Shown: one piece after another, positions 49,817 to 54,173 of the stretch
Layout of the letters: the number at the start of each line of letters is the position of its first letter
Numbering within the stretch: position 1 is the first letter of the stretch
NCBI GenBank assembly: GCA_026004195.1
Contig: BPIQ01000001.1
Coordinates: forward strand, 186,001 to 250,000
DNA: 64,000 nucleotides
Reading direction: 5' to 3'
From: Candidatus Binatia bacterium
GTDB taxonomy: Bacteria > Desulfobacterota > Binatia > HRBIN30 > BPIQ01
Notes under the pieces: model-generated
Database searches by the model: none
Seen by the model: the letters and a program-made list of their open reading frames with translations, nothing else
Told to the model about the DNA's origin: nothing
Translations under genes and position numbers: made by a program

Positions 49817-51647
49817 GCCCGCGCTCTCGAACCGAATGGTCGGTGGGTGGGAGGCAACTGCCCGCGTCCTACGCCGAGTTCCGGCAGGAAGCCGTCGCAC
49901 AGAACCTCGAGCCGGCGGCTCGTGTCGTTTTTGTCGTGACGCTTTTTTACTTCGCCTTCGACTTTTTCCGACGTCCCGACATGCCCTGGCTGCAGATAGC
50001 CCCCTACCTGATCCAGCTCGGCGTACCGGTGTGGGTCGTGCTCCTGGTTCGTGGGCGGCTACGGTCGCGGGCCGAATGGATCGCCTTCGCGGCGGACGTG
50101 GTCTTCACGGTTACGACCGCTTTCCAGGTGTTCTTGCCTACTTCCACCGTGAGCGGCGTGGCCTTGATCCTCGCGATCAAGCTCCTTTCGACGGCCCTTT
50201 TCTTCCCCTGGCATCCAGGCTTCCAGTACGTCTCGGGCCTTTTCACGGTGGGCCTTTACGTCACGCTCGCCCATCTCTCGGGACGGGTCGATCTCGGGAG
50301 CTGCACCGCCCCACCAGCTCATCGGCACCCTCGTCGCCGCGCTGCTCGGGTCCGGAGGTGCGGCGCGCGGCGACCGCGTGCGGCGGGAACTTTTTGCTTT
50401 CGAGCGCAACCTCGCTCTCGAGGCGGATCTCGCGAGCCGTCTCGCCTACGCGGGGCAAAGGCTCGTAGCTTCGATCGGGCGCGCGAGCCTCTTCGAGGAC
50501 CTCTGCGAAGTGGCCGCGAGCATCCTCCGCGCCGACACGGCCCACCTCCTGGTCCCCGAAGGAGGTACCGAGGGGTTCGTCGTGAAGGCATCCTACGGGT
50601 ATTCCGAAAGCCAGCGGGAGACGATGGGGGTGCTTCGGTTTCGGCCGGGAGCGGTGAGGATCGACGGGCTTGAGGGAGCGTGGCGTCGCGCAGATTCGGA
50701 CGGAGGAACTCGGGCATCCGGGGTGGATGCGGTTGGCTCGGGGCTTCGGGATTCGCGTCGCGCTCGGGATCGCGTTGCGGCGCGGAGAGGAGCTTCTCGG
50801 CATTCTTTCCGTGTGCCGCCGAACCCGTGCGGAACCTTTCACGGCAGCCGAAGAGCGGCTCGGGCTGGCACTCGGGCAAATGGCCACCCTCGCCTGGGAA
50901 AACCAGGAGCTCTTCGAAGACCTCGAGGAGACCAACCGTAGGAAGTCCGAGTTCGTGGCCACGGTCGCGCACGAATTTCGGAACCCGCTGGGCGCGATCC
51001 TGGGTTACGCGGGGATGCTCGCCGAGTCGGATCTCGGCACCGAAGAGCGCGCGTGGGTGGGTCGCATCGAACGCAACGCGCGGGAGCTCCTCGGAATCGT
51101 CAACGCCACGCTCGACCTCCAGAGGCTCGAGCGGGGCCAGTTGCCCGTGGAAGTCCGCGAGGTCCGCCTCCCGGAGATCCTCGCGGACGTCGAAGCCTCC
51201 GTCCTCGAGCTCGCGAAGGGGCGTGCGGTTCGTTTCGAGCTGGCGGTTTCGGGAGACCTCCCCCCCGTCCACACGGATCCGACCAAGCTCGAGATCGTGT
51301 TGCGGAACCTCGCGACGAACGCCGTCAAGTACACCGAGGAAGGGAGCGTGAGGCTCGAGGTCGAGCGTCGGGACGGTGGGGTGGAGTTCCGGGTCGTGGA
51401 CACGGGACCCGGAATTGCGCCGGAGGACCTCCGCCGGATTTTCGACCCGTTCTTCCGGGGTCGAAGGGGAAAGGGGGCGGGGGGCGTGGGACTGGGTCTT
51501 TTCATCGTCCAGCGTCTGGTTGCGCTCCTCGGCGGCGAGGTTTCGGTGCGGAGCGTGCCGGGGGAGGGCACGACCTTCCGGCTCTGGATACCGGAGTCGC
51601 TCGAGCCGCGTTCCGGACTCGCGGGCGCGGAAGGAAGCCAGGGATAA
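49813..51647 (+). pseudogene. membrane GAF sensor histidine kinase, two frameshifts
   Basis: Read across three frames this is one sensor kinase of about 610 residues. Segment 1 (49813 to about 50310) encodes a multi-helix membrane domain. Segment 2 (about 50310 to 50670) starts a cytoplasmic region with PPHQLIGTLVAALLG, a coiled stretch and most of a GAF domain. Segment 3 (about 50670 to 51647) completes the GAF domain and holds the HisKA and ATPase domains. Each switch needs one base to be skipped, near the C-run 50309-50312 and near 50670-50677. Either the gene is decaying or the assembly carries two single-base insertions. No response regulator is adjacent. Confidence 0.75.
50670..51647 (+). 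CDS. open kinase-core fragment of the broken sensor kinase
   Basis: This is the longest intact frame of the gene above. After the GAF end come the phospho-acceptor H-box VAHEFRNPLGAILGYAG, the N-box region LRNLATNAVKYTEEGS, the G1 box VDTGPGIAPEDLRRIFDPFF and the G2 box GVGLGLFIVQRL. All catalytic motifs of a HisKA/HATPase_c core are present. The TTG at 50670 has no clear ribosome site, so independent translation is doubtful. Confidence 0.6.
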   Translation: MRERGVAQIRTEELGHPGWMRLARGFGIRVALGIALRRGEELLGILSVCRRTRAEPFTAAEERLGLALGQMATLAWENQELFEDLEETNRRKSEFVATVAHEFRNPLGAILGYAGMLAESDLGTEERAWVGRIERNARELLGIVNATLDLQRLERGQLPVEVREVRLPEILADVEASVLELAKGRAVRFELAVSGDLPPVHTDPTKLEIVLRNLATNAVKYTEEGSVRLEVERRDGGVEFRVVDTGPGIAPEDLRRIFDPFFRGRRGKGAGGVGLGLFIVQRLVALLGGEVSVRSVPGEGTTFRLWIPESLEPRSGLAGAEGSQG

Positions 51648-51684: not shown

Positions 51685-51789
51685 CCAAAATCATGGAGCA
51701 GTCCCAACGGGGCCCGCCCGGCGAGCACGAGGTCGGGTCGCTGTTTCCAAAGGGGGCCGAGAACTCTCTCGGAAGAAGGAGAAAAAAAC

Positions 51790-52446
51790 ATGTCGCTCAG
51801 GAAAGTTTGCCTTTTGGCTCTGGCTTCGGCCGTTCTCGTAGGCTGGGCCCACGCAGGGCCGGATACGCCGAAAGACCCGCTCTGCCGCCTGGATTGCAAG
51901 CACGCGCTCCGGCAGTGCCTGCACGACGCGCACGCCGACGCCCGGCTCTGTCGGGCGGAGTGTGCCGACCTTTTCGAGGCTGCGAGAGCGGCTTGCTCGG
52001 AAAACCCGCGCTCGGAGGAATGCCGCAGGGCACGGGCCGAAGCCCGGGGCTGCGGAGGAGAGTGCGCTCGGAGTCTGCGCATTGCTCTCCACGACTGTTT
52101 CGCGAACGCTCGAACCTGCTTGACGGAGTGTCCCGAGCGGGAGCCCCTGCCTCCGAAGGATCCGGAGTGCGTCGGTCGCTGCCGTGCCGCGATGCAGGAG
52201 TGTCGCGAAGCCGTGCGGGAAGCAACCGAAGCGTGCGTCGGCGGCTGCGAGGACTTGCGGGACGCCCTGCGTAGCGCGTGCGAGGAGGACCCGCGGTCCG
52301 AAGAGTGCCTCGAGGCACGCCGTGCTCTGCACGAGTGTCTCCGCCCCTGCCGCGACTCGCACCGGGACGGGATGAGGAACTGCGCGAGTTCGCTCGCCGA
52401 CTGCGTGCGCTCCTGCCCGGATCGGGAAACGGAGTCGACCGAGTAG
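51790..52446 (+). CDS. secreted protein with two identical 12-cysteine units
   Basis: A 218-residue protein with a signal peptide (MSLRKVCLLALASAVLVGWA, cut near AHA). The mature part holds 24 cysteines in two units. Unit 1 Cys are at 32, 36, 43, 54, 58, 69, 78, 88, 92, 103, 110 and 114; unit 2 repeats every position exactly 95 residues later (127 to 209). Four CxxxC pairs per unit stand in Ala/Arg/Glu/Leu-rich, probably helical, sequence. The link ERSxPRSEEC-like piece (NPRSEEC, DPRSEEC) is shared. AAGGAG lies eight bases before the ATG. I do not recognise the family; disulfide-stapled helical hairpins or metal binding are possible. Confidence 0.85.
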   Translation: MSLRKVCLLALASAVLVGWAHAGPDTPKDPLCRLDCKHALRQCLHDAHADARLCRAECADLFEAARAACSENPRSEECRRARAEARGCGGECARSLRIALHDCFANARTCLTECPEREPLPPKDPECVGRCRAAMQECREAVREATEACVGGCEDLRDALRSACEEDPRSEECLEARRALHECLRPCRDSHRDGMRNCASSLADCVRSCPDRETESTE

Positions 52447-52587: not shown

Positions 52588-53721
52588 CTAGGACGTGAGG
52601 ATGTGGATCGTGCAGGCCGAGCCGAGACCGATCACGTGAGCAAGCCCCACTCGGGCTCCCTCCACCTGCCGGTCTCCCGCCGTTCCCCGCAAGTGGTGGA
52701 CGATTTCCGTCACGTTGGCGACTCCGGTGGCCCCGAGGGGATGCCCCTTGGAGAGGAGCCCACCGCTCACGTTGACGGGAATCTTGCCCCCGTGGTCGAA
52801 CCATCCCTCCTCGAGCCGCACGCCGCCTTCGCCTTCCTGGCAGAGGCCCAGGTTCTCGTAGTGGAGGAGCTCCGCCGTGGCGAAGCAGTCGTGGAGCTCG
52901 ACCAGATCCAGGTCCTCCGGGCCCACGCCCGCTTTCTCGTACGCTTCGCGGGCCGCGTTGCGCGTGAGCGTGTTCACGTCCGGAAACGAAAGGTCGCGTT
53001 CGGTCCAGGGATCCGAAGTCAGGACCGAGCAGGCGATTTTCACCGGTTTGTGCTGCCCCTTGCGTTTTTGCACCGACTCCGAGGCCAGGACGACGGCCGC
53101 TGCGCCGTCCCCCGTGGGACAGCACATGTAGAGCGTGTTCGGGTAGGCGACCATCCTGGCGTTCAGCACGTCCTCGAGGCCGACTTCCACCTGGTACTGC
53201 GAGAGCGGGTTTTTCGTCGAGTGGCGGTGATTTTTCACGGACACGAGAGCGAACTGCTCGATCGTGGTCCCGTATTTCCGCATGTGCTCGACGCCGGCCT
53301 GGCCGAAAACGGCCGGCATGAGCCCGCTCCCGAGAATGCCCTCGACGCTCTCCCCGCGGCCTCCGCCGCCGAGGAGCCCCGCTTTTCCCATCTGTTCCGA
53401 ACCCACGGCAAGGGTGATGTCGTAAAGGCCGGTGGCGACCCCGAGGTAAGCCTCCCGGAGAGCGGTCGACCCGGTCGCGCAAGCGTTCGACACGTTCACC
53501 ACGGGTATGCCCGTCTGGCCGAGCTGCTGGAGAATGCGCTGCCCGACCATCGCGTGCGCCTGGAACAGGTTGCCGCTCGCGAAAAACTGGATGTCCCGGA
53601 TGCCCAGACCCGCGTCCCGGAGCGCGAGCATCGCCGCTTCCGCTCCGAGCTCCGCCACGTCCTTTTCGGGATACCTCCCGAATTTGATCATTCCAACGCC
53701 CAGTACGTAAACGTCTCTCAT
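52588..53721 (-). CDS. thiolase-family acyl-CoA acetyltransferase (SCP-x type)
   Basis: A 377-residue thiolase-fold protein of the lipid-transfer/SCP-x group. It has the nucleophile Cys81 in NVSNACATGSTALREAY, VELHDCFATAELLHYENLG, and the C-terminal SGGLLSKGHPLGATGVANV with the active His. These enzymes act in beta-oxidation-like or steroid side-chain breakdown and often need a DUF35 partner. The partner gene lies directly upstream and overlaps by ATGA. Start at the ATG of MRDVYVLGVGMIKFG. Confidence 0.9.
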   Translation of the reverse strand: MRDVYVLGVGMIKFGRYPEKDVAELGAEAAMLALRDAGLGIRDIQFFASGNLFQAHAMVGQRILQQLGQTGIPVVNVSNACATGSTALREAYLGVATGLYDITLAVGSEQMGKAGLLGGGGRGESVEGILGSGLMPAVFGQAGVEHMRKYGTTIEQFALVSVKNHRHSTKNPLSQYQVEVGLEDVLNARMVAYPNTLYMCCPTGDGAAAVVLASESVQKRKGQHKPVKIACSVLTSDPWTERDLSFPDVNTLTRNAAREAYEKAGVGPEDLDLVELHDCFATAELLHYENLGLCQEGEGGVRLEEGWFDHGGKIPVNVSGGLLSKGHPLGATGVANVTEIVHHLRGTAGDRQVEGARVGLAHVIGLGSACTIHILTS

Positions 53722-54173
53722 GCTCCGCCCTCCGTCGCGCTGCGCTCCGTTTCCGGAACGGGCCGGAAAAAGAAGGCAATGACGTCGTTCCCGTCCTTGT
53801 CCTCGCGCACTTTCCTCGTGATCATTTCCACGGGCATCCCGAAGCGGATCTTCTTCGGGTCCGGCTCGACGTCGACGAGGTTGCAGCGCACGCTGATACC
53901 TTCGGGGAGGTCGACGATGGCGGCGACGTACGGCGTCGGGATCCCCGGGAAGGACTGGTGGACGATCGAGTAGGTCCAGAGCGTCCCGCGCCGGCTCAGC
54001 GGGATTTCCTCGAAGGGACCGGGCTCGGTGCACTTGGCGCAGGCGACGCGGGCCCCGAAGTACACCGCTCCGCAGTTCTTGCACCGCCGTCCCACCAGCG
54101 TGCCTTCCCGCCCGTCGTTCTCGAGACGCAAGAACGGGACGATCGGTCGGATCTTTTTCGTCGGTTCCGGCAT
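53718..54173 (-). CDS. DUF35 zinc-ribbon/OB-fold acyl-CoA-binding protein
   Basis: A 151-residue protein with a zinc ribbon (CKNC at 31-34, CAKC at 45-48) followed by an OB fold (RGTLWTYSIVHQSFPG onwards). This is the standard layout of DUF35 (ChsH2 C-terminal-like) partners of SCP-x thiolases. It probably forms a complex with the thiolase encoded next and helps bind the acyl-CoA. First gene of the two-gene minus-strand operon. Confidence 0.9.
   Translation of the reverse strand: MPEPTKKIRPIVPFLRLENDGREGTLVGRRCKNCGAVYFGARVACAKCTEPGPFEEIPLSRRGTLWTYSIVHQSFPGIPTPYVAAIVDLPEGISVRCNLVDVEPDPKKIRFGMPVEMITRKVREDKDGNDVIAFFFRPVPETERSATEGGA

Follow-up and report, generated by a model that had tools for sequence, protein, structure and literature searches.

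Disulfide-stapled helical hairpins are best known from eukaryotes, where they carry two bonds. In the plant alpha-hairpinins, two CXXXC motifs lie on antiparallel helices and are joined Cys1-Cys4 and Cys2-Cys3 (PMC7191063). The mitochondrial twin CX3C/CX9C proteins, i.e. the CHCH and small Tim proteins, likewise carry CXnC motifs in two antiparallel helices that are joined by disulfides (PMC7925007). The closest bacterial look-alikes of the protein described here are the copper storage proteins (Csps), the exported members of which bind Cu(I) through CxxxC motifs (PMC5171941). Csp1 and Csp3 are built as a single four-helix bundle with reduced thiols; a Tat signal is present in the exported members, and conserved His residues are found in Csp3s (PMC5171941).

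The window, a 64,000-nucleotide stretch of a Candidatus Binatia genome, encodes a protein of 218 amino acids with a cysteine pattern that recalls all of these systems. The features at this locus are as follows:

51790..52446, plus strand: gene of a putative two-hairpin, 24-cysteine exported protein, 218 aa (translation; relatives with the same cysteine pattern)
51776..51781, plus strand: AAGGAG ribosome-binding site, 8 nt 5' of the ATG (read in the sequence)
51790..51855, plus strand: putative Sec/SPase-I type signal peptide MSLRKVCLLALASAVLVGWAHA, with G as the next residue; neither twin arginine nor lipobox (read in the sequence)
51883..52131, plus strand: predicted hairpin unit 1, C32-C114 (spacing, unit profile, AlphaFold2 helices)
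52132..52167, plus strand: 12-residue linker PEREPLPPKDPE between units 1 and 2 (sequence; relatives)
52168..52416, plus strand: predicted hairpin unit 2, C127-C209 (spacing, unit profile, AlphaFold2 helices)
50670..51647, plus strand: upstream neighbour, a histidine kinase with GAF-like, HisKA and HATPase_c domains (Pfam)
52588..53739, minus strand: downstream neighbour, a thiolase-like protein (Pfam)

We take the gene at 51790-52446 to be real: its product has relatives with this cysteine pattern in many genomes, an AAGGAG motif stands 8 nt ahead of the start codon, and the signal peptide is of a typical kind. The signal peptide and its cleavage after AHA were assigned by eye. No promoter or terminator matches were found around the gene, and no functional tie to the histidine kinase or the thiolase-like neighbour is apparent. 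The protein ends in a short acidic tail after unit 2, and the linker between units differs in length and sequence among relatives.

Re-translation of the open reading frame places cysteines at positions 7, 32, 36, 43, 54, 58, 69, 78, 88, 92, 103, 110 and 114 through unit 1, and at 127, 131, 138, 149, 153, 164, 173, 183, 187, 198, 205 and 209 in unit 2. The total is 25, with C7 inside the signal peptide, which leaves 24 in the mature protein, the number that the original prediction had given for a secreted protein. Its further claim of an exact +95 counterpart in unit 2 for every cysteine of unit 1 holds for 12 of 12, and the spacings within a unit are exactly those it gave (3, 6, 10, 3, 10, 8, 9, 3, 10, 6, 3). 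Outside the cysteines, the two units are identical at 23 of 83 aligned positions (28%). A seven-cysteine DNA pattern of the unit spacing matched twice in the window as against 0.00 times in shuffles. The equal-spaced 24-cysteine repeat is thus confirmed as real and beyond chance.

The near-mirror order of the spacings, also remarked upon earlier, is explained by folding the unit in half, which pairs cysteines 1-12, 2-11, 3-10, 4-9, 5-8 and 6-7. With the unit numbered 1-83, cysteines fall at 1, 5, 12, 23, 27 and 38 and at 47, 57, 61, 72, 79 and 83, and pairing from the outside inwards gives a sum of 84 five times and then 85. In protein numbering, five pairs of unit 1 each sum to 146 and the sixth to 147 (C32-C114, C36-C110, C43-C103, C54-C92, C58-C88 and C69-C78), the corresponding sums in unit 2 being 336 and 337 (C127-C209, C131-C205, C138-C198, C149-C187, C153-C183 and C164-C173). 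Successive rungs of such a ladder lie 4, 7, 11, 4 and 11 residues apart. The mirror quality of the unit was equalled in 4 of 200,000 random trials with six cysteines per helix, in which the outermost and turn-side cysteines of each helix were kept fixed. The cysteines of each helix also form one stripe (resultants 0.93 and 0.88; p 0.0002 and 0.004). Since a protein sequence cannot arise by self-reversal, the palindrome of spacings suggests that structure imposes it, and we infer two antiparallel helices with their cysteines face to face.

Structure prediction with AlphaFold2, a check that had been proposed for this protein, supports such an arrangement: each unit is modelled as two antiparallel helices of about 40 residues, connected by a short turn that falls on the mirror centre. 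The model of the whole protein, made from a ten-sequence alignment, has a pLDDT of 90 overall and about 98 inside the units, with predicted helices at 30-57/59-71, 76-112, 125-151/154-166 and 171-207. A single unit modelled alone gave a pLDDT of 94.3, with predicted helices at 8-34/36-48 and 53-89 and a turn at residues 49-52, the mirror centre being 50. The predicted pTM was 0.64 for the whole protein and 0.78 for one unit; the lower value for the whole fits loosely linked hairpins, but does not prove them. The idea of antiparallel helices stapled by CxxxC pairs is well supported, the hairpins being borne out by the prediction. One detail needs correction: the ladder extends beyond the CxxxC motifs, since every cysteine has a mirror partner. 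Searches of the PDB gave no significant match by sequence (best profile E-values 0.086, to CP12, and 0.46), and nothing with an E-value below 0.3 by fold with Foldseek. The best Z scores obtained with VIA against the PDB (9.2 and 9.1) are at the level general for coiled coils and long helical hairpins, and these fold neighbours were dropped as generic long-helix hairpins.

With the window protein as query, relatives were found in 15 of the 39 near genomes, a count that includes its own. A profile built from ten two-unit proteins found them in 39 of the 148 genomes of the class, and a profile of the unit in 43 of 148; among 395 genomes sampled from the phylum, relatives were detected by the unit profile in six, all but one of which belong to this class. 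The unit profile matches the window's units with E-values of 4e-18 (unit 1) and 1.4e-19 (unit 2), both units being members of that profile. In Pfam, no family reached cut-off with the window protein (best E-value 0.1, to unrelated families) or with 22 units, and neither Pfam nor NCBIfam holds a curated model that reached cut-off for the window protein or nine relatives. This agrees with the earlier statement that no described bacterial family shows the pattern, and no published description of it was found in the literature. Weak matches to CP12, DUF6862, ABATE and SG135 were judged to be chance. No relatives were found in plasmid, phage and viral collections. A search of 84,980 species genomes with the seven-cysteine DNA pattern revealed no true member among the matches listed and inspected; those inspected among the matches listed were chance hits and low-complexity TGC runs. 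We regard the proteins as a family that had no name before and is spread across one class of bacteria.

Variants with other numbers of units, which had been suggested as worth a search, do exist: the relatives range from one to five full units per protein, the counts of units and cysteines being descriptive, as the sequences are kin to one another. One-unit proteins include L007, L017 and L154, while L212, L013 and L012 run to three, four or five full units plus a short one. The original prediction had named related genomes without the conserved spacing as evidence that would speak against it; the spacing is kept, and the mirror is retained in most variants. The window's own spacing recurs in 14 of 76 distinct units, and among the twelve-cysteine units of relatives the exact palindrome (3,6,10,3,10, then 8, then 10,3,10,6,3) appears in 16 of the 76. 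In units with ten cysteines (3,6,10,3, then 8/10/12, then 3,10,6,3) pair 6-7 is gone, and nine of ten are exact palindromes. In units with eight cysteines (3,17,3, then 8, then 3,17,3), pairs 6-7 and 3-10 are missing and the palindrome is still exact. Only one further copy was found in the window's genome, at 449934-450287 of contig 2; it has ten cysteines and lacks exactly C4 and its mirror partner C9. Cysteines are generally lost by whole mirror pairs, so that 12, 10 or 8 remain, with unit 2 of L152 as an exception that lacks C4 and has kept the partner. Such paired loss is in keeping with antiparallel helices that disulfide rungs hold together. The count of mature cysteines is even in 45 of 53 related proteins and odd in eight, two of these probably through a cysteine of the signal peptide, and in several units the inner rungs are shifted by one or two residues. 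Apart from the cysteines, very few residues are invariant across relatives. In six relatives (L165, L169, L170, L221, L222 and L224), an extra N-terminal cysteine segment (C10C3C10C6) precedes the canonical unit, which has a two-residue insertion.

Set beside the plant alpha-hairpinins, the units would share an antiparallel helix pair with a turn and nested, mirror-ordered disulfides between CXXXC motifs. The alpha-hairpinins are short plant peptides with four cysteines in a CX3C-Xn-CX3C arrangement and two bonds, whereas the bacterial proteins have twelve cysteines per 83-residue unit and carry their units in tandem within a larger protein; no sequence relation is claimed. With the CHCH and small Tim proteins, they would have in common antiparallel helices with CXnC motifs, bridged by oxidative folding outside the cytosol. 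Those proteins have two bonds per hairpin and belong to the eukaryotic intermembrane space, in contrast to rung spacings of 4, 7 and 11 in one six-rung ladder and bacterial Sec export. The predicted antiparallel helix pair with its turn and the mirror-ordered cysteine pairs would place the units in the alpha-hairpinin or CXnC-type structural class of disulfide hairpins. By analogy, the working principle appears to be shared with both groups, and we assign the proteins to neither. The likeness to Csp1 and Csp3 lies in many cysteines on one face of long helices, in the CXXXC motifs and in the bacterial, sometimes exported, nature of the proteins; the hairpin family differs from them in the absence of a Tat signal and of conserved His, and in units that occur both singly and in tandem.

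We consider it likely that the window protein is exported and forms a helical rod laddered with disulfides, which probably serves the cell envelope or its vicinity as a module for structure or display. The protein would be exported via Sec and its cysteines oxidized outside the cytoplasm; the genome does contain DsbA-family genes, for which a search had been advised. Each unit of 83 residues would form two antiparallel helices of roughly 40 residues, the twelve cysteines of which, on facing stripes, may form six consecutive disulfide rungs (1-12, 2-11, 3-10, 4-9, 5-8 and 6-7). These rungs would replace a hydrophobic core, and therefore the rest of the surface would be free to vary. The resulting unit would be a rigid rod resistant to proteases and heat; two such rods with a short linker would make up the window protein, and one to five rods, at times with extra segments of the surface-protein type, its relatives. 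The role as an envelope module, taken by itself, is the least certain step, for which we would put the chances a little below even; it rests on domain company and signal peptides. With six mirror-ordered rungs and up to five full units in tandem, this would be a helical module with an unusually dense set of cross-links. It would lend itself to protein design as a rigid scaffold, and studies of oxidative folding in bacteria would gain a strong test substrate.

The company kept by the hairpins in relatives bears on this role. In L230 they are fused to myxo_disulf_rpt, SdrD_B and carboxypeptidase-regulatory domains, in L019 they are joined to collagen-like GXX repeats and in L215 to acidic repeats. 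Six two-unit proteins (L158, L162, L215, L216, L217 and L218) have in common a C-terminal YGSAxxAFL-type motif, which reads GSASGAFI in L162 and L218. The motif is possibly a sorting signal; NCBIfam recognized no known sorting signal in L215 and L216. The domain company and the C-terminal motif are traits seen in exported proteins, often those located at the surface. At L157:2091-3386, the neighbour of a one-unit hairpin gene encodes a protein with tandem CGNGxxxxGEECDDGN-type repeats, which resemble myxo_disulf_rpt.

At eight loci in seven genomes (L172, L173, L174 twice, L175, L181, L182 and L184), the hairpin gene is followed immediately and on the same strand by a DUF6502 (PF20112) gene and then a lipoprotein gene. 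Besides the order to which the window belongs, these genomes represent at least one further order of the class. The lipoprotein has a carboxypeptidase-regulatory-like domain and a GG(P)VGTG-like motif after the lipobox. In L185, L186 and L188, a one-unit hairpin gene is divergent to the DUF6502 gene. The window's hairpin gene stands alone without this cassette, and two DUF6502-lipoprotein pairs occur elsewhere in its genome, not adjacent to a hairpin gene. Both partners are uncharacterized, and no papers on DUF6502 were found. We propose, more tentatively than the envelope role itself, that the tandem six-rung bacterial CXnC-type hairpin is the exported part of a DUF6502-lipoprotein cassette, an undescribed envelope system of the class. 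The linkage offers a first handle on two uncharacterized gene families.

The cysteines might instead remain free thiols that face the interior of a four-helix bundle formed from two hairpins, storing Cu(I) or binding another metal by thiolates in the manner of a Csp. Cysteine-lined helices, CxxxC motifs, four helices and export are all features of exported Csps, but we hold this reading to be unlikely and a weaker rival to the rigid envelope module. The window protein gave no Pfam match with a usable E-value, and its signal peptide MSLRKVCLLALASAVLVGWAHA lacks RR, whereas the exported MtCsp1 and MtCsp2 have Tat signals (PMC5171941). Three His residues are conserved in Csp3s, and no His is conserved across the hairpin family. 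The one-unit relatives L007 and L017 have just two helices, a metal core does not demand that cysteines be lost in mirror pairs, and the drop in pTM from one unit to the whole protein is consistent with, without proving, loosely linked hairpins.

We find it more improbable still that the protein serves in defence or antagonism, with antimicrobial or protease-inhibiting loops displayed on a stapled hairpin. The staple principle of the alpha-hairpinins (PMC7191063), the variable surface and the polybasic tails of L007 and L017 would suit that role, but the protein is far larger than an alpha-hairpinin, no adjacent immunity gene or dedicated export partner is present, and relatives are linked to DUF6502 and a lipoprotein instead. 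The least credible of these alternatives seems to be that the protein cycles its many disulfides as a thiol-redox buffer or a folding factor of the envelope. That would account for the extreme cysteine content in an oxidizing compartment, in a genome with DsbA-family genes, but the window protein has no CXXC or CPC redox motif, the number of units varies, and a ladder kept as architecture and lost by pairs suggests structural bonds.

The window's genome also contains a short element that is interspersed and has an inverted repeat, CCCCGGACGCGACGGAGCGCGTCC. No copy of its core lies within the window; 15 core copies lie in two stretches of 11-18 kb, with sites in L187 (4825, 13392, 13518, 13643 and others) and L210 (82-692 and others).
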